Positions 3,208 through 54,775 of a stretch of 64,000 bases of DNA are shown one piece after another. Under the pieces are notes generated by a model. It searched no databases. It was given only the letters and a program-made list of their open reading frames with translations, and was not told the origin of the DNA. Source of the DNA: Pinisolibacter aquiterrae (GTDB taxonomy: Bacteria > Pseudomonadota > Alphaproteobacteria > Rhizobiales > Ancalomicrobiaceae); contig NZ_JAFNIH010000032.1 in assembly GCF_019160155.1 (NCBI RefSeq), forward strand, positions 1 to 64,000, written 5' to 3'. Numbering within the stretch: the stretch's first letter is position 1; every line of letters begins with the position of its first letter. The position numbers and the translations under genes are program-made.

Positions 3208-5799
3208 TCAGTAGAGGCCGCCCTGCTGGAGACCGCGCTCCTGCTCCGGCGTGACCTTCTGCGCCTTGCCGAACTCCTCGGTGTCGTAGCCGATCACCGA
3301 ATAGGTGTCGGGCGGCGCGGTGCCGGGCTTGAAGGCTTCCATGATCGCGTCCGGATCGCCCGGCGAGGCCTTCATGCCGGTGTGGTGGTTGACCGCCACC
3401 AGCCGGATCCCCGGCGGCACGCGGAACGGCACCGGCGGCTTGTCCTTGAGCGCGTCGGCGAAGAACTCGCGCACCACCGGCGCGGCGGTGTGGCCGCCGG
3501 AGGCTCGGCCGAGGTCGCGCGGCCGGTCGTAGCCCATGAAGACGCCGGCGACGAGATCGGGCGTAAAGCCGACGAACCACACGTCCTTCTGGTCGTTGGT
3601 GGTGCCGGTCTTGCCGGCGATCGGGCGCTTCAGATCGGCGAGAACCGTCGCGGTGCCGCGCTGGACGACGCCCTCCATGATCGAGGTGATCTGATAGGCG
3701 GTCATCGGATCGAGCACCTGCTCGCGGTCGTCGATCAGCTCCGGCTCGGGCTGATGCGCCCATTTCGGCGCGTCGCAGGCCTCGCAGATCCGTTCGTCGT
3801 GCTTGAAGACGGTCTTGCCCCAGCGATCCTGGATACGGTCGATGAAGCTCGCGTTCACCTTGCGGCCGCCGTTGGCGATGGTCGCATAGGCGGCCGTCAG
3901 ACGCAGCACCGTGGTCTCGCCCGCGCCGAGCGACATCGGCAGATAGGCGCCGAGATCGTCGTAGATGCCGAACCGCTTGGCGTATTCGACCACCAGCGGC
4001 ATGCCCATGTCCTTGGCGAGCCGCACCGTCATGGTGTTGCGCGACTGCTCGATGCCGACGCGCAGCGTCGAGGGGCCGTAGAACTTCTGCGAATAGTTCT
4101 CCGGCTTCCACACCGGCTGTCCGCCGCCGGGATTGATCTCGATCGGCCCGTCGAGCACCAGCGACGACGGCGTGTAGCCGTTGTCGAGCGCGGCGGCATA
4201 GACGAAGGGCTTGAACGACGAACCGGGCTGGCGCCACGCCTGGGTGGCGCGGTTGAACTCGCTCTCCGCGAAGGAGAAGCCGCCGGTGGTGGCGAGCACG
4301 CGGCCGGTGTGGGGGTCCATCACCACGATCGCGCCGGAGATGTCGGGCACCTGACGCAGGCGATAGACCTGACGCTCGCCGGTGCCGGCGCCGACCTTCT
4401 CCACATAGACGACGTCGCCCGGCATGACGATGCTCGCCATGCCCTTGCCGATCGCCGTGCGCTTGACGCCGTCGGCCATCCGCGTCGCCCATTTCGACTG
4501 GTCGAAGGCGAGGATGCCGCGCTCGCGCTCGGTCGAGATCTCGCCCGTCACCAGACGGCGCGGCTGCAGGCCGACGATCGCCTCCTGATCGCCGACCGAG
4601 AGCACCACGCCGAGCCGCCATTCCGGCACGTCGGAGAGCGCCTTGACCTCGGCCAGCGCCGGGCCCCAGTCGCCGGTGTAGGTGAGCTTGGAGACGGGGC
4701 CGCGCCAGCCGTTGTTGGTGTCGTAGCCGAGCAGACCGTCCATCAGCGCCTTGCGGGCGAGCCGCTGGAGCTTGGGATCGAGCGAGGTGCGCACCGACAG
4801 GCCGCCCTGATAGAGGCCACGCTCGCCGTATTTCTCGATCAGCTGGCGGCGCACCTCCTCGGCGAAATAGTCGGCGCCGAAGATGTGCGGGCCGGTGGTG
4901 CGCGGCACGACCTTCAGGGGCTCCGCCTTGGCCTTGTCCGCCTGCTCCTGGGTGATGAACCCGTTGGCGGCCATCTGCCCGATCACCCAGTTGCGCCGCT
5001 CGATGGCGCGGTCGGTGTGGCGGAACGGATGATAGTTGTTCGGACCCTTCGGCAGAGCCGCGAGATAGGCGGCCTCGGCGATGGTCAGCTCGTGCACCGA
5101 CTTGTCGAAATAGAGGAGCGAGGCCGCCGCCACCCCGTAGGCGCCCATGCCCAGATAGATCTGGTTCATGTAGAGCTCGAGGATCTCCTCCTTGGAGTAG
5201 GCCGCCTCGATCCGGATGGCGAGGATCGCCTCCTTGATCTTGCGCTCGAAGGTCTGCTCGTTGGAGAGGAGGAAGTTCTTGGCGACCTGCTGGGTGATGG
5301 TCGAGGCGCCCTGCGGACGGCGGCCGGAGAGCTTGTTCTGCACCGTGATGATCGCGGCGCGGATGATGCCTTCCGGATCGAGGCCGGAATGCTCGTAGAA
5401 ATTCTTGTCCTCGGCCGAGAGGAAGGCGTTCTTCAGAAGCTGCGGGATCGCCTGGCTCGGCAGGAACAGCCGCCGCTCGGAGGCGTATTCGGCGACGAGC
5501 TCGCCGTCGCCGGCGTGCACGCGGCTCATCACCGGCGGCTCGTAGTTCTTGAGCGCCGTGTAGTCGGGAAGGTCGGCGGAGGCGTTTTTATAGGCGACCC
5601 ACACGCCCGCCGCGACGATCAGGACCGCGACCGTGCCGATTCCGAAGACGTAGCCGATGAACCGCAGAAGAAACATGCCGCCCGTTTTCCTCGCCGATGC
5701 GACGGGCGGCGATCCTTCGTCGCCCCCGTCCGATTCCACGGGCGCTCCCGCGTCGCCCACGGGTTCGCTCGAACCCGCCGGACGTCGCCGCCGTGACAT
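3208..5799 (-). CDS. mrcA: penicillin-binding protein 1A (bifunctional transglycosylase/transpeptidase)
   Basis: This enzyme polymerises lipid II and cross-links peptidoglycan at the outer face of the inner membrane. From the chosen start it has 863 residues: a Pro/Ser-rich cytoplasmic tail, one transmembrane segment at about 45-68, a GT51 glycosyltransferase domain with the catalytic glutamate in SAEDKNFYEHSGLD and the motif GASTITQQVAKN, then a transpeptidase domain with SSFK near residues 527-530, SRN, and KTGTT near 730. The start at 5799 is chosen over one 36 codons upstream because an AAAGG ribosome-binding site lies 7 bases before it and the upstream extension is Arg-rich and unlike the family. 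The amidase gene is just upstream on the same strand and rne is divergent beyond it, an arrangement conserved in Hyphomicrobiales. Confidence 0.95.
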   Translation of the reverse strand: MSRRRRPAGSSEPVGDAGAPVESDGGDEGSPPVASARKTGGMFLLRFIGYVFGIGTVAVLIVAAGVWVAYKNASADLPDYTALKNYEPPVMSRVHAGDGELVAEYASERRLFLPSQAIPQLLKNAFLSAEDKNFYEHSGLDPEGIIRAAIITVQNKLSGRRPQGASTITQQVAKNFLLSNEQTFERKIKEAILAIRIEAAYSKEEILELYMNQIYLGMGAYGVAAASLLYFDKSVHELTIAEAAYLAALPKGPNNYHPFRHTDRAIERRNWVIGQMAANGFITQEQADKAKAEPLKVVPRTTGPHIFGADYFAEEVRRQLIEKYGERGLYQGGLSVRTSLDPKLQRLARKALMDGLLGYDTNNGWRGPVSKLTYTGDWGPALAEVKALSDVPEWRLGVVLSVGDQEAIVGLQPRRLVTGEISTERERGILAFDQSKWATRMADGVKRTAIGKGMASIVMPGDVVYVEKVGAGTGERQVYRLRQVPDISGAIVVMDPHTGRVLATTGGFSFAESEFNRATQAWRQPGSSFKPFVYAAALDNGYTPSSLVLDGPIEINPGGGQPVWKPENYSQKFYGPSTLRVGIEQSRNTMTVRLAKDMGMPLVVEYAKRFGIYDDLGAYLPMSLGAGETTVLRLTAAYATIANGGRKVNASFIDRIQDRWGKTVFKHDERICEACDAPKWAHQPEPELIDDREQVLDPMTAYQITSIMEGVVQRGTATVLADLKRPIAGKTGTTNDQKDVWFVGFTPDLVAGVFMGYDRPRDLGRASGGHTAAPVVREFFADALKDKPPVPFRVPPGIRLVAVNHHTGMKASPGDPDAIMEAFKPGTAPPDTYSVIGYDTEEFGKAQKVTPEQERGLQQGGLY

Positions 5800-16182: not shown

Positions 16183-16568
16183 GACGGGACCCTCGACCGG
16201 GCGGCGGCCTCGACGGGGAGGATGCCGCAGCTTTGTGTTCGATGAAACACAACGTAGCCGGTTTTTCACACGTCTCGACGATCCTCGCCCCCGGCGTCGC
16301 GAAAACCGGCCCAAAGAACGACGGCGTGCGCTCCGCGCGAACGTCGGGCGACCGCGTCCCCCTTGCGCCCCTTCCCGCTTCGGTCTAGACGATCGGCTAC
16401 GGTCGGCAGTTCACCGAGGCGTCGCCACCCCGAAAGGGGAGCTGGACCTGCCAATTTTCACCTTCGCGATCGACACGCTTTCCCCGTGTGCCGCGTCGGC
16501 AAGGGCGACCACCGAACGTCCGTCGAGGCTCCGCCCCCGGACTGCGGCACATCGCACGAGGATCAGCG
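16183..16568. other. 386-base divergent intergenic region
   Basis: The region lies between the ModA-like gene (minus) and the DUF2087 gene (plus). It holds the inverted repeat at 16233-16252 near the ModA-like gene. I see no other gene or RNA. Promoters of both genes must lie here but are not obvious. Confidence 0.5.
16233..16252 (-). promoter_or_regulatory. inverted repeat upstream of the ModA-like gene (Mo-box-like)
   Basis: Two perfect 7-base arms, TTGTGTT and AACACAA, are separated by 6 bases. The core TGTGTT-N6-AACACA has the same 6-6-6 geometry as the repeats upstream of modA and mop (TGTATC-N6-GATACA type). It lies 51 bases before the ATG, a good operator position. The link to molybdate control is inference. 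Confidence 0.5.
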
Positions 16569-35221: not shown

Positions 35222-35250
35222 TTGACTCTCCCGCCGTTCCGCTCATATTT
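35222..35250 (+). promoter_or_regulatory. promoter of the cobalamin operon
   Basis: TTGACT (35222-35227), a 17-base spacer and ATATTT (35245-35250) form a good housekeeping promoter. Transcription would begin near 35257, exactly where the outer stem of the riboswitch begins. Confidence 0.65.
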
Positions 35251-35256
35251 CGGCCG

Positions 35257-35481
35257 ATCGACGGTCCCGCGAGCCACCTCGCGGGCGAAGAGGGAATGCG
35301 GTTCGAACCCTTCCACGCGGTCGTGCCCGGAATCGGGCGCCACCCGAGGGCGAGGTTCGAGAAGCCGCGGCTGCCCCCGCAACTGTGAGCGGAGAGTGCG
35401 ACGCCGAAAGGCCACTGGGGTTCGCCCCCGGGAAGGCGGCGTCGCGCGCGAGATCCGTGAGCCAGGAGACCTGCCGTCGAT
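35257..35481 (+). ncRNA. cobalamin (adenosylcobalamin) riboswitch
   Basis: This is a B12-sensing leader RNA. The outer stem is a perfect 8-bp pairing of ATCGACGG (35257-35264) with CCGTCGAT (35474-35481). Inside are the conserved blocks: AGGGAAtgCGGT near 35291, the B12 box GCCGCGGCTGCCCCCGCAA near 35364, then CTGTGAGCGGAGAG, GCCACTGGG, CCGGGAAGG and GAGCCAGGAGACCTGCC. All are in the order of the family. It ends 44 bases before the first ATG, and the ribosome-binding site AAGGAG lies beyond the outer stem. High B12 should therefore lower expression of the genes from 35526 onward. Confidence 0.95.
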
Positions 35482-35525
35482 GCGACCGACCGGACCGCCG
35501 GAGGGGCGGAGAAGGAGACCTGCGC

Positions 35526-36989: not shown

Positions 36990-39900
36990 ATGCATCTCGT
37001 CGCCGATCAGGTGCGATCGCTGGACGAGACCGCGCGCGCCGTCGACCTCGGCCAGACTACGGCCGAGGTCGCCTTCCTCTCCTTCTCCGACAGCGATCTC
37101 GCGCTGGTGGCGAAGGCCCACGCCGCCGGCGCGGACGCCCTGCCGTCGCTGCGCCTCGCCTCGCTCGCCGATCTGCGCCACCCCTATTCGGTCGACTTGT
37201 GGCTCGACGCCGTCGGCCGCAAGGCGCGCTTCGTGCTGGTCCGGCTCCTCGGCGGCATGGACTATTGGCGCTACGGCGTCGACGAACTCGCCGCCGCCGC
37301 CCGCAACCACGGCTTCACCCTCGCCCTCGTGCCCGGTGACGCCCGCGAGGACGAGCGCCTCGACCGCGCCTCGACCCTCCCCCCCGAGGACCTGCGCCGG
37401 CTCTGGCGCTGGTTCGACGAGGGCGGCCCCGACAACATCGCCTCGGCGCTCGGCTGGGTCGCCGCGCACCTCGGCCGCGACGCCGCCTGGAACGAGCCGC
37501 GCCCGTTGCCCGCCCACGGCGAGATGATCGAGGCCGCGCGCGCCGGCGCCGGTCCTCTCGCGCTGATCACGCTCTATCGCTCGATCTGGGCGGCGGCCGA
37601 CGCCGCGCCGATCACCGCGCTCGCCGACGCGCTCGCCGCGCGCGGCTTCCGCGTCCGCGCCGAATGGGTGACGAGCCTCAAGGACGCCCGCGTCGTCGCC
37701 GGCCTCGCCCGTCTGATCGAGACGGAGCGCCCGGCGATCGTCGTCAACACCACCGCCTTTTCCGCCCGCCTCGACGACGGCACCACCGTGCTCGATCGCG
37801 CCGGCGTTCCGATCCTCCAGGCGGTGCTGGCGACCTGCGCCCGCGAGGCCTGGGAGGGCTCGACCCGCGGCCTCGCCGCCGCCGACCTCGCCATGAACGT
37901 GGTGCTGCCGGAAGTCGACGGCCGCATCGCCACCCGGGCGATCTCCTTCAAGGGGCGAGAGGCCCGCTCCGAGGTCCACCAGCATGCACGCAACGTGCAT
38001 ACGGCCGACGCCGAGGGCATCGCCGCCGTGGCCGATCTCGCGCGTGCCTGGGTACGCTTGGGCGCGACGCCGAGGGCCGAGCGCCGCCTCGCGATGGTGG
38101 TCTCCGACTACCCCGCCAAGGGCGGACGCACCGCCTATGCCGTCGGCCTCGACACGCCGGCTTCCGTGATCGCCGTCGCCGAAGACCTCGCCGCCGCCGG
38201 CTACGCCGTGACGCCGCCGCCCGACGCCGCGACGTTGATGCGGGTTCTCGAACGCCGGATCGACACGTCCGCCCCCTTCCCTTCTCCCCGTGCGGGAGAA
38301 GGTGCCCGAAGGGCGGATGAGGGGTCTCCGGGCCGCCGCCTCGATCGAGCCTCCCCCGATGCCCACCCGGTCGCCACCTCCTCGGCCCCCTTCATGGCGA
38401 GGCGCGCCGCCGAAGGCGGGGCCTCGAACCAGGAAGGGCTGGGACGCGACGGCGTCGCACCGAGCAACGGCGCCCTCGGCTCCCGTTCCTCGCCGCGCAC
38501 GCCGGGAGCGACGGCGATGGAGGAGGAAGCCCCCGCCCTCTCCCTCGCCGCCTACGAACGCCACTTCGCGGCCCTCCCCGCCGCCTTCCGCGACGCGGTC
38601 GGGGCCACCTGGGGGTCCCCCGCCGCGGACGCGAACCTCGAGGGCGACGCCTTCCGCTTCCCCCACCTCGCGCTCGGAAACCTGACCGTCGCGGTCCAGC
38701 CCGATCGCGGTCGTCGCGACACCCGCAAGAGCGAGTATCACGACACCTCGATCCCACCCCGCCACGGCTATGTCGCCTTCTATCTGTGGCTGCGCGAGAC
38801 GCTTCGCATCGACGCGATGATCCATCTCGGCACCCATGGCACGCTCGAATGGCTGCCCGGCAAGAGCGCAGCGCCCTCCCCCGACTGCGCGCCGACCGCC
38901 GTGCTCGGCCCCGTGCCGGTCGTCTATCCCTTCGTGGTCAACAATCCCGGCGAGGCGGCCCAGGCCAAGCGGCGCATCGGCGCCGTCACCGTCGGCCACA
39001 TGACGCCGCCGCTGGCGCGCGCCGGAAGCCACGGCGCCGCCGCCGAGATCGAGGCCCTGCTCGACGAATTCAGCCAGGCCCAGACCCTCGATTCCCGCCG
39101 CGCCCGGATGCTCGCCGAGACCATCCTCGACCGCGCCCGCGAGACCGGCCTGGCGCAAGAGAGCGGCATCGCCGCCGATCTCGACGCCGCCGAGGCGCTG
39201 ACCCGGCTCGACGCCTGGCTCTGCGACTTGAAGGACGCCCGCATCGCCGACGGCCTCCACGTCTTCGCTCGTCCCGACGCGCCCGCCCTGCGCGCGGCCG
39301 CCGTCGAGGCGCTCGGCGAGGGCATGACCGGCGTCGACCGCGCGCATCTCCCCACTCGCCTCGACGCCTGCGCCACCGCCGAGCGCGACGGCCTCCTCGC
39401 CGCCCTCGACGGACGCTTCCTCGCTCCCGGCCCGGCAGGCGCCCCGGCGCGCGGCCGTCTCGACGTGATGCCGACCGGGCGCAATCTCTACGCGGTCGAT
39501 CCGCGCGGCGTGCCGACCCGCACCGCCTGGGAGATCGGCCGCCGCACGGCGGAAGAGGTGATCGCCCGCCACGTCCAGGACCACGGCGACTGGCCGCGCG
39601 CCATCGTGCTCGATCTCTGGGGCTCGGCCACGATGCGCACCGGCGGCGACGATCTCGCGCAAGGGTTCGCGCTGATGGGCGTGCGCCCGACCTGGGATGC
39701 CGCGACCGCGCGCGTCGCCGGTTTCGAGATCCTGGTCCCGGCCAAGATCGGCCGGCCCCGCGTCGACGTCACCCTGCGCGTCTCCGGCCTCTTCCGCGAC
39801 GTCTTCGAGGGCCAGATCACCCTCTTCGATCAGGCCGTGCGCGCCGTCGCCGCCCTCGACGAGGACGACGAGGACAACGCGCTCGCCGCCGCGCGGCGCG

Positions 39901-40625
39901 CCTCCGGCGGCGCGATCGAGGCGGGATGGCGCGTCTTCGGCGCGGCCCCCGGCGCCTATGGTGTCGGCCTCTCCTCGACGGTGGCGACCGGCGCCTGGGA
40001 GACCCGTGCCGATCTCGGCGCCGCCTATGTCGCCGCCTCCTCCCACGCCTACGGCCTCGACGCCGCCGGCATCGCCGCGCCCGAGGCCTTCACCGCCCGC
40101 GTCGCCTCCGCCGACGCCTTCGTCCACACCCAGGACACCGCCGAACAGGACGTCCTCGACGCCGACGCCTTCGCCGAGCACGAGGGCGGCTTCGCCGCCG
40201 CCGCGAGCGGGCTCGGCAATCGCCCGGCGCTGTATCACGCCGACACCACCCGCACCGATCGCTCGACGGTCCGGACCCTGTCGGAGGAGATCGCCCGGGT
40301 GGTCCGGGCGCGGGCCACCAATCCGCGCTGGATCGCCGGCCAGATGCGCCACGGCCATCGCGGCGCCGCCGAGATCGCCGAGACCATCGCCAATCTCCAC
40401 GTCTTCGCCGCGACCACGGACGCAGTGGCGCCGAGGGCCTACGATCTGCTATTCGACGCGACACTCGGCGACGAACGGGTCCGCGCCTTCATGCTCGACG
40501 CCAACCCCCTCGCCGCCCGAGCCGCCGCCCGCACCTTCGACGAGGCGCTGCGCCGCGGCCTGTGGGCGAGCCGGCGCAATTCCGTCGCCGGATGTCTGGC
40601 GGAGATCCTGGAGGACGACCGATGA
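36990..40625 (+). CDS. cobN: CobN, large subunit of the aerobic cobaltochelatase
   Basis: CobN binds hydrogenobyrinic acid a,c-diamide and, with CobS and CobT, inserts cobalt using ATP. CobS and CobT are not in this window. The 1211 residues cover the whole magnesium-chelatase H/CobN-type protein: the N-terminal LVRLLGGMDYWRYGVDEL, VVSDYPAKGGRTAYAVGLDTP, the HLGTHGTLEWLPGK motif, MPTGRNLYAVDPRGVPT and the C-terminal NPRWIAGQMRHGHRGAAEI. Between about residues 428 and 510 an 80-residue low-complexity stretch interrupts the protein. It corresponds to two inserted palindromic repeat elements that keep the frame. The region before and after reads as normal CobN, so the gene is probably functional. 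The stop overlaps the cobG start. Confidence 0.95.
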   Translation: MHLVADQVRSLDETARAVDLGQTTAEVAFLSFSDSDLALVAKAHAAGADALPSLRLASLADLRHPYSVDLWLDAVGRKARFVLVRLLGGMDYWRYGVDELAAAARNHGFTLALVPGDAREDERLDRASTLPPEDLRRLWRWFDEGGPDNIASALGWVAAHLGRDAAWNEPRPLPAHGEMIEAARAGAGPLALITLYRSIWAAADAAPITALADALAARGFRVRAEWVTSLKDARVVAGLARLIETERPAIVVNTTAFSARLDDGTTVLDRAGVPILQAVLATCAREAWEGSTRGLAAADLAMNVVLPEVDGRIATRAISFKGREARSEVHQHARNVHTADAEGIAAVADLARAWVRLGATPRAERRLAMVVSDYPAKGGRTAYAVGLDTPASVIAVAEDLAAAGYAVTPPPDAATLMRVLERRIDTSAPFPSPRAGEGARRADEGSPGRRLDRASPDAHPVATSSAPFMARRAAEGGASNQEGLGRDGVAPSNGALGSRSSPRTPGATAMEEEAPALSLAAYERHFAALPAAFRDAVGATWGSPAADANLEGDAFRFPHLALGNLTVAVQPDRGRRDTRKSEYHDTSIPPRHGYVAFYLWLRETLRIDAMIHLGTHGTLEWLPGKSAAPSPDCAPTAVLGPVPVVYPFVVNNPGEAAQAKRRIGAVTVGHMTPPLARAGSHGAAAEIEALLDEFSQAQTLDSRRARMLAETILDRARETGLAQESGIAADLDAAEALTRLDAWLCDLKDARIADGLHVFARPDAPALRAAAVEALGEGMTGVDRAHLPTRLDACATAERDGLLAALDGRFLAPGPAGAPARGRLDVMPTGRNLYAVDPRGVPTRTAWEIGRRTAEEVIARHVQDHGDWPRAIVLDLWGSATMRTGGDDLAQGFALMGVRPTWDAATARVAGFEILVPAKIGRPRVDVTLRVSGLFRDVFEGQITLFDQAVRAVAALDEDDEDNALAAARRASGGAIEAGWRVFGAAPGAYGVGLSSTVATGAWETRADLGAAYVAASSHAYGLDAAGIAAPEAFTARVASADAFVHTQDTAEQDVLDADAFAEHEGGFAAAASGLGNRPALYHADTTRTDRSTVRTLSEEIARVVRARATNPRWIAGQMRHGHRGAAEIAETIANLHVFAATTDAVAPRAYDLLFDATLGDERVRAFMLDANPLAARAAARTFDEALRRGLWASRRNSVAGCLAEILEDDR
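38272..38327 (+). repeat. palindromic repeat, family A, inside cobN
   Basis: A short element containing CTTCTCCC...GGGAGAAGG and then GCCCGAAGGGC, ending GGATGAGGGGTCT. It differs by a single base, over about 54 bases, from the copy at 47692-47747. It is translated in the cobN frame. Confidence 0.85.
38381..38441 (+). repeat. palindromic repeat, family B, inside cobN
   Basis: Imperfect palindrome with outer arms CCCTTCATGG...GAACCAGGAAGGG and an inner GC hairpin. It matches the element at 44128-44189 over most of its length. It is in frame in cobN, 53 bases after the family A copy. Confidence 0.8.
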
Positions 40626-43336: not shown

Positions 43337-44106
43337 GCCGGCAAACGAACGGCGGCTGGCTCCGCGTCGTCGGCACCGGACCGGGCCCGGATCGCTGGCT
43401 GACGCCGGAGACGGCGGCGATCCTCGCCGAGGCCACCGACCTCGTCGGCTACGCGCCTTACGTCGCGCGCTGTCCCGAGCGGCCCGGCCAGACCCGCCAC
43501 GCCTCCGACAATCGGGTCGAGCTCGACCGCGCCCGCCACGCGCTGGAGCTGGCGACGGCGGGTGCCCGGGTGGCGGTGGTCTCCGGCGGCGATCCCGGCG
43601 TCTTCGCCATGGCGGCAGCGGTGATGGAGGCGATCGACGGCGGTCGGCCGGAGTGGCGCACCCTCGACGTCACCGTCCATCCGGGCGTCTCGGCGATGCA
43701 GGCGGCCTCGGCGCGGCTCGGCGCGCCGCTCGGCGGCGATTTCTGCGCCATCAACCTGTCGGACAATCTGAAGCCCTGGGAGGTCGTGGAGAAGCGCCTG
43801 ATCGCCGCCGCCGAGGTCGGCTTCGTGATCGCGCTCTACAACCCCGCCTCGAGGGCGCGCCCCCGCCAGATCTTCGACGCCTTCGCCTGCCTCGCCCGGG
43901 TCAAGGCGCCCGAAACGGTGGTGATCTTCGCCCGCGCCGTCGGCCGTCCCGACGAGCGGATCACCGTGACGACGCTGGGCGCGGCCGATCTGTCCATGGT
44001 CGACATGGCGACCTGCGTCATCGTCGGCAACGCCGACACCCGGGTGATCGAGCGCGGCGAGGACCTCGAGCCCTGGGTCTGGTCGCCCCGTTCGGTCGCG
44101 AGGTGA
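43333..44106 (+). CDS. cobJ: precorrin-3B C17-methyltransferase CobJ
   Basis: An SAM-dependent ring-contraction methyltransferase acting on the CobG product. The 257 residues show VVGTGPGPDRWLTPET, VGYAPYV, VVSGGDPGVFAMAAAV, HPGVSAMQAASARLGAPLGGDFCAINLSD and a C-terminal VIVGNADTR. The ATG overlaps the cobI stop. It is the last gene of the uninterrupted riboswitch-proximal run; palindromic repeats and the opposite-strand cobK follow. Confidence 0.94.
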   Translation: MSRQTNGGWLRVVGTGPGPDRWLTPETAAILAEATDLVGYAPYVARCPERPGQTRHASDNRVELDRARHALELATAGARVAVVSGGDPGVFAMAAAVMEAIDGGRPEWRTLDVTVHPGVSAMQAASARLGAPLGGDFCAINLSDNLKPWEVVEKRLIAAAEVGFVIALYNPASRARPRQIFDAFACLARVKAPETVVIFARAVGRPDERITVTTLGAADLSMVDMATCVIVGNADTRVIERGEDLEPWVWSPRSVAR

Positions 44107-44127
44107 GCCGATGGCCGCCGCCCCCTC

Positions 44128-44189
44128 TTCGGCCCCCTTCATGGTGAGGTGCCCCGCCGCGGGCGGGGCCTCGAACCACGAAGGGCTGA
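44128..44189 (+). repeat. palindromic repeat, family B, after cobJ
   Basis: Arms CCCTTCATGGTGAGG and CCTCGAACCACGAAGGG flank a GC-rich loop. It matches the family B copy inside cobN. Located between the convergent ends of cobJ and cobK. Confidence 0.8.
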
Positions 44190-44198
44190 GGGACCTCC

Positions 44199-47676: not shown

Positions 47677-47691
47677 GCGGCTCGCCCCGCG

Positions 47692-47747
47692 CGCCCTTCC
47701 CTTCTCCCCTTGCGGGAGAAGGTGCCCGAAGGGCGGATGAGGGGTCT
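47692..47747 (+). repeat. palindromic repeat, family A, left copy after cobM
   Basis: CTTCTCCC-GGGAGAAGG stem plus GCCCGAAGGGC, ending GGATGAGGGGTCT. It is nearly identical to the copy in cobN. With the inverted copy 58 bases to the right it forms a large inverted repeat between convergent genes. Confidence 0.85.
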
Positions 47748-47805
47748 GGACGTCGCCGCTCGCGACGTCGCCGGAGAGTTCATCGGATGCGCGCTCCCGC
47801 GCGCG

Positions 47806-47855
47806 CCCCCTCATCCGGCCCTGCGGGCCACCTTCTCCCACGAGGGGAGAAGGAA
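47806..47855 (-). repeat. palindromic repeat, family A, inverted right copy
   Basis: The reverse complement of family A (CCCCTCATCC ... CACCTTCTCCC ... GGGGAGAAGG) with several differences. It ends 8 bases before the cbiD stop codon. Confidence 0.8.
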
Positions 47856-47863
47856 GAGGCGCC

Positions 47864-54453: not shown

Positions 54454-54775
54454 GGGCGTTCCCTCGAGTTCGGCGTTTCGCCGGGGCGGCGCGGGCCAAG
54501 GTAGTGTCCGCCCGTGTCGCCGACAAGGCATCCCGGGCGGAACGTCTCGTCGCGAGTCCTCTCCTTCTCCCCTCGCGAGAGAAGGCGGCCCGGCACGGGC
54601 CGGACGAGAGGGCGCGGGCGCGAGCCCGCGACGGGCGGTGCCGGAGGACTTCGCGCTCCGCGCGGCACCCCTCATCCACCCTTCGGGCACCTTCTCCCGC
54701 GAGGGGGAGAAGGAAGGATGTGCGACGCCGTGGCGAACCGTCACCCAGAGCCGGCGGCGGTCCGCTCGATCCGCC
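54454..54775. repeat. intergenic region with an inverted pair of family A repeats
   Basis: Between the serS stop and the fixR-like start lies a pair of palindromic elements. A degenerate forward family A copy is at about 54557-54612 and a well-preserved inverted copy at 54666-54717 (CCCCTCATCC ... CTTCGGGCACCTTCTCCC ... GGGGAGAAGG). A GC-rich spacer separates them. The arrangement copies that between cobM and cbiD. No gene is seen; the fixR promoter must be here or upstream. Confidence 0.75.

Follow-up and report, generated by a model that had tools for sequence, protein, structure and literature searches.

The cobN locus and its palindromic repeats

The DNA analysed in this study (referred to as the window) comprises positions 1-64000 of contig C4 in a draft genome of 4.9 Mb that is distributed over 61 contigs. 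It contains a cobN gene whose product is identified as the CobN subunit of cobaltochelatase by its match to the equivalog model NF008973, which scores 1497.9 bits (cut-off 1235) and extends across the whole protein (residues 1-1205). The gene is located downstream of a cobalamin riboswitch and is followed by cobJ, a gene for a CbiE/CbiT-type methyltransferase and cobM, and its closest named relatives are found in Siculibacillus, next to relatives in metagenome-assembled genomes (MAGs). A fold search supports the CobN/ChlH fold (7c6o, Z 29.9, 613 aligned residues, rmsd 13.3), with a match that does not inform on the linker described below. In a different part of the window, positions 16400-16453 match the Rfam family RF02940 (COG3860 RNA) with 69.4 bits. 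The features relevant for this study are as follows:

35245..35492, forward strand: cobalamin riboswitch upstream of the run of cob genes (Rfam RF00174, 110.8 bits)
36990..40625, forward strand: cobN, open frame of 1211 amino acids for cobaltochelatase subunit CobN (NCBIfam NF008973 and TIGR02257 above cut-off; Pfam PF02514)
38259..38510, forward strand: insert specific to this lineage within the linker of CobN, covering residues 424-507 with approximate ends (no homologous residues in L019/L054; AlphaFold pLDDT below 50 at 428-511)
38271..38328, forward strand: palindromic repeat of family A, whose in-frame reading gives PFPSPRAGEGARRADEG (nhmmer E 3.8e-18; CM R1 76.9 bits)
38373..38444, forward strand: family B palindromic repeat in the cobN frame (nhmmer E 5.5e-20; inverted repeat I2)
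44120..44193, forward strand: intergenic copy of family B (nhmmer; frame scoring), located 3' of cobJ, whose end is at 44106
47690..47747, forward strand: intergenic copy of family A, located 3' of cobM (nhmmer; frame scoring)
47802..47861, reverse strand: copy of family A that forms an inverted pair with 47690-47747 (nhmmer; covariance model; frame scoring)
54556..54615, forward strand: weaker family A copy, intergenic by frame scoring (nhmmer; covariance model)
54663..54722, reverse strand: copy of family A that forms an inverted pair with 54556-54615 (nhmmer; covariance model; frame scoring)

As stated in the initial annotation, both elements in cobN keep the frame, which is open without stop codon through A and B. 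The family A element is 97% identical across 58 bp to the copy at 47690; its presence at 38272-38327 had been recognized correctly, whereas the difference to the intergenic copy at 47692 amounts to two bases (38273 and 38290) rather than the single one counted initially. The family B element had been described as similar to a copy at 44128, which agrees with our comparison, where it differs from the copy at 44127 in 7 of 62 positions and shows 89% identity across 70 bp to the copy at 44119. The nhmmer profiles of both families, which were built from copies of the genome including the two residing in cobN, find no match at E ≤ 0.5 in ten sequences simulated from the window with a first-order Markov model, and marginal matches of the B profile are located on the reverse strand at 37857-37897 inside cobN (E 0.013) and on the opposite strand of the copy at 44120 (E 0.3). 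Two stretches, one of about 44 nucleotides separating A from B and one of about 66 following B, match no repeat, which leaves a remainder of about 110 nucleotides of the insert, and the segment 38430-38530 finds weak matches elsewhere in the genome, with a best E-value of 0.005. The predicted hairpins of A and B on the coding strand are modestly better than those of shuffled sequences (z -1.2 and -2.1). At the gathering threshold, neither A nor B of the window is covered by an Rfam family, and the same was found for palindromes of other loci (L067, L055, L052, L057 and L018).

A genome-wide search with a covariance model of family A, in which 150 of 9186 first-look candidates were scored, has identified 25 matches at E ≤ 0.01, with 18 of them being full length at 32.7 bits or above. 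Upon frame scoring based on codon usage, one of the 18 strong A copies and one of the four B copies found are located within a gene, in both cases cobN. A further match in a coding frame (L161, E 0.0035) is weak and probably does not constitute a true copy. Inverted pairs of family A are present at five places in the genome; in cobN, the A element has no A partner and B is found at about the distance of a partner. The copies on contig C5 are less than 340 bases away from the contig end, which makes their context less certain. In 15 tested copies of family A, stop codons were found in at most two of the six frames, and it would thus be easy rather than rare for such an element to land in frame. 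With its short palindrome, its many copies, their mostly intergenic location and their frequent arrangement as inverted pairs, family A displays the properties of a REP-like element, with family B being represented by the four copies found.

Insertions at CobN loops in different lineages

The proposal that a loop of CobN has received in-frame insertions of two unrelated palindromic repeats was borne out by the comparison with relatives that the initial annotation had called for. In the alignment with L019/L054, which belong to one genome, no residues are found between positions 421 and 506 of the query, leaving residues 424-507 approximately without counterpart in near relatives. The span equivalent to residues 405-520 contains 116 residues in the CobN of the window. 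Among 101 unique CobN proteins, it contains at most 31 residues in 70, 32-39 in 14 and at least 40 in 17 cases, and it encompasses 33 residues in a relative of the same genus (L017). The placement of the insertion in a loop is supported by an AlphaFold model of residues 1-780, predicted with 34 aligned sequences, since the pLDDT falls below 50 at residues 428-511 (28-38 in blocks of residues) and ranges from 82 to 95 in the flanking blocks. In this model, the predicted disordered stretch is located between two well-predicted helices.

The initial annotation had regarded the insertion as an unusual single case, but other CobN genes, mostly from Hyphomicrobiales, carry such insertions, in most instances of other repeat families. 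Strong palindromes at the same linker are found in nine other lineages (S. lacustris, G010/G013, Alsobacter, the Rhodopila-titled record L048, Methylocapsa S129, L063, G047, G029 and G070), thus raising the number to ten if the window is counted. Because the elements differ, these insertions likely originate from separate events, a view that is based on the sequences of the elements and not on a tree. In S. lacustris, the described span contains 264 residues with several elements. G010 and G013 share an inner pair of palindromes, with an outer pair in G013, and in G004, a member of the same genus, the span contains 32 residues and no insert in a genome with seven element matches. Genome-wide repeat status was checked in five genomes, a set outside of which L048, L063, G047, G029 and G070 are located. 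It includes 95 element matches in G013 and 139 in G008, and in Methylocapsa 83 matches (counted on both strands and including self), most of them over the same 111 bp. Alsobacter contains 19 matches, three of them in cobN itself, with the other 16 being short (28-64 bp). In frame scoring of best matches, where the cobN copies pass as positive controls, none of 20 Methylocapsa copies is located in another coding frame and two of 20 other copies in S. lacustris, detected with an element from query L018, reside in other open coding frames. Further expanded linkers, such as those of L025, L109, G081 and G019, have a similar appearance at the peptide level but are below the inverted-repeat score at this site.

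Several observations concern individual linkers or copies. The S. lacustris linker (L020:3571-4323, also L057) shows an apparent near-tandem duplication of a multi-palindrome segment, which results in about 250 residues. Nested pairs, with an outer one surrounding an inner one, are found in a single CobN linker at L018:826-1323, each being matched elsewhere in that genome. The in-frame copies L197 and L198 of S. lacustris (G008) are located in open coding frames other than cobN, whose lengths are about 732 and 366 codons.

Besides this linker, palindromes accumulate at further positions of the protein. In 100 non-redundant CobN frames of at least 1000 amino acids, 71 of the 79 inverted repeats with a score of 16 or higher are found at four places, which in residues of L019 correspond to about 205-215, 425-458, 484-505 and 710-720. 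The remaining eight are located elsewhere, including three near the N-terminus, where frames defined from stop to stop may include untranslated DNA. The same kind of palindrome is present at two loops of one gene in at least seven genes (six from Mesorhizobium and the MAG L075). A repeat in the third loop was detected in 39 genes, most of which are Mesorhizobium-titled and may descend from a single event, and the third-loop palindrome of Mesorhizobium sp. L-8-3 (L055) appears similar to family A by eye.

For a broader survey, 111 genomes of the order were drawn evenly, 98 of which match CobN at E ≤ 1e-15 (some with a paralogue only). Of these genes, 78 were read and 20 of the 98 genomes are outside the read set, including G028, where the gene is cut by a contig end. 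An inverted repeat scoring at least 16 was found in 12 of the 78 genes, which together contain 14 repeats. Thirteen of the 14 reside at the four loops, one of the 12 genes (G033) carrying its repeat outside of them, although this clustering does not provide an independent test, since the four loops had been derived from the set of 100 frames, with which the order-wide set has genes in common. In codon-shuffled copies of the whole CobN set, three rounds gave four inverted repeats. The same scan did not detect any inverted repeat in 30 MetH genes (108 kb; the 30 best from 84 genomes with a match) and 70 CarB genes (234 kb; the 30 best and 40 picked among longer or split matches). The comparison of CobN with MetH and CarB, which does not depend on the definition of the loops, has a Fisher p-value of 3e-5, or 1.5e-4 if 12 of 98 is used, both values treating genomes as independent that are related, without reference to a tree. 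At a lower threshold of 14, the numbers are 18 for CobN, none for MetH and two for CarB. The CobN of the window is not among the 12 genes and falls below the survey score since its palindromes are imperfect. In CarB of several genomes of the order (such as L282 and L289), matches are longer or split near model residue 145 and lack a strong inverted repeat.

Origin and persistence of the inserts

In the reading that we favor, with a probability of roughly 0.8, the inserts are selfish REP-like repeats which are kept in genes only where they reside in frame within a disordered loop, and the loops of CobN trap them repeatedly. Families A and B would constitute short REP-like palindromes that have spread in the genome, probably by transposition, and that normally are found between genes. 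One copy of each would have entered the linker that joins a helix ending around residue 420 to a helix starting around residue 519, and both would now be read as part of a disordered loop that makes the protein about 84 residues longer. Because the linker is disordered and the net insertion is in frame and does not contain a stop codon, the gene would still be functional and the insertions would not be purged, with the CobN protein presumably being made and active including its insert. With at least four tolerant loops available in the protein, different families of palindromes would repeatedly be captured at these sites, most of all in Hyphomicrobiales, and it would be the combination of tolerance and purifying selection that causes the observed pattern. 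Some of our observations speak against this account. The RAYT-type Y1 transposase (PF01797) was not detected in this genome or in nine others of the genus and family, the single positive one of 15 genomes overall belonging to another family, and RAYT was thus rejected as mobilizer for the searched genomes of this family. Copies in S. lacustris are found in other coding frames and the palindromes of the window are below the survey score.

A further challenge to passive tolerance comes from Mesorhizobium, where the cobN gene of L067 (at 4417-4571) and 29 others contain a palindrome of about 155 bp in the third loop, whose arms are separated by a spacer of nearly constant length. In these 30 genes (29 Mesorhizobium-titled and one MAG), which were selected by requiring an inverted-repeat score of at least 30, the two arms show overall identities of 0.94 and 0.92, with third codon positions alone giving 0.95 and 0.92, compared to 0.65 for third codon positions in the rest of cobN and 0.46 in the spacer. 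Nine arm pairs have changed on both sides, a number that is reached in none of 500 shuffles (mean 5.3) and compares to 1-3 if partners are slid by one to three columns. The arms are thus more conserved than passive tolerance alone would predict, and the alignment indicates that something is acting on their nucleotides. These features would be expected if the palindromes were kept because the hairpin itself acts, for example in the mRNA by pausing ribosomes at a domain boundary while the N-terminal half folds, or by setting the stability of the B12-operon mRNA. Although the choice of genes favors intact arms, it was mild, as 29 of 34 Mesorhizobium-titled genes are part of the selected set, with the other five containing other elements in two cases, none in one and eroded versions in two. 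However, the L067 genome shows 80 matches on two strands, corresponding to about 40 other copies, and gene conversion among these copies would be enough to explain the conservation of the arms, with correction from arm to arm leading to the same pattern. In frame scoring of this genome, the cobN flanks, which serve as positive control, are below the threshold with values of 0.14 and 0.38, both of which are reached by no other copy (the nearest, L395, showing 0.06 and 0.08). Moreover, the hairpins in the window exceed shuffled sequences by a small margin and many relatives manage without insert. Selection on the hairpin in Mesorhizobium cobN is possible, whereas we consider it unlikely that hairpin activity would account for the retention of the palindromes. 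We are slightly more skeptical of its extension to the entire order, where CobN loops would keep palindromes for a task of the hairpin in mRNA or DNA, such as domain-boundary pausing or the control of CobN levels, and where unrelated families would act as interchangeable suppliers across Hyphomicrobiales.

Much less probable is a scenario where cobN is a pseudogene or the result of an assembly artefact, whose open frame is accidental. The draft status of the genome with its 61 contigs would be compatible with such a view, and the open frame argues little against it on its own, since stop codons are rare in such GC-rich sequence. Yet, the score of CobN is above the cut-off of NF008973, the gene is embedded among cob genes downstream of the cobalamin riboswitch and other genomes contain in-frame insertions at the same linker. 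Least probable is a resemblance to repeats that has emerged by chance in a fast-evolving disordered segment, since, despite some expanded linkers lacking a strong inverted repeat (such as L022, L024, L050 and L091), the identities of 97% and 89% to other copies and the lack of matches in simulated controls refute it for the A and B segments of the window and leave it conceivable for the approximately 110 nucleotides that match no repeat.

Relation to known palindromic repeats

The palindromic elements of Rickettsia (RPE) were reportedly described by Ogata et al. in 2000 and 2002. In later work, they are portrayed as repeats of about 150 bp that are inserted in frame into genes of conserved proteins, where they are translated as additional residues, with nearly half of the first-described elements being located in open reading frames (PMC10969869, PMC2229807), and as carrying a CGTC tag at one end (PMC3733652). 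The elements in cobN resemble RPE in their in-frame insertion into a conserved protein gene. They differ by their smaller length compared to the 150 bp given in these sources, by the absence of CGTC at either end in alignments of 11 A and four B copies and by their restriction to a single gene, which accounts for one of 18 strong A and one of four B copies, unlike the many in-gene copies in Rickettsia. The parallel to Rickettsia drawn in the initial annotation thus extends to the mode of working but, in light of the missing tag, not to membership in the same class.

Intragenic REPs with GTAG or CGTC tags were described for several taxa (BMC Genomics 2013 14:522; PMC3733652), where flexible linkers were already proposed to be tolerant, two species of Xanthomonas were found to carry REPs at nearly the same position of recB and CGTC REPs were noted to apparently exist without dedicated transposase as well. 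The main text of this study does not mention cobN. Families A and B lack both tags, and in comparison to the GTAG REPs mobilized by RAYT they lack both the GTAG tag and the Y1 transposase (PF01797). Pairs of inverted REPs constitute BIME-like arrangements, which family A resembles at the five places where it forms inverted pairs but not in cobN, where it is found without A partner.

In-frame palindromes in proteins are thus already known from Rickettsia and, in the form of REPs with GTAG or CGTC tags, from a number of other taxa. What appears to be new is that the same few loops of one enzyme are hit by unrelated palindromes throughout an order, and that the repeat families concerned lack both tags and RAYT. 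No report of repeats in cobN was found in the literature covered by our search, outside of which most subscription journals are located. With Rickettsia being the best-known case, it is here the CobN of ordinary, not obligately intracellular bacteria that in many lineages traps palindromes of unrelated families, always at a small set of recurring loops, which gives the protein the appearance of a natural target for selfish DNA. Since one and the same enzyme occurs without insertion, with a single one and with nested ones, it offers a natural experiment on whether such inserts are neutral passengers, and the system allows asking how repeats of this kind spread in the absence of RAYT and if a coding region can benefit from a hairpin.

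Two additional observations concern CobN linkers of other genomes. At L049:4252-4410, the linker contains a run of N beside a fragment, which probably reflects an assembly join and which we take to resemble a POTRA domain of BamA. The CobN insertions in G047, G029, Methylocapsa and L090 start at or near CGTC.
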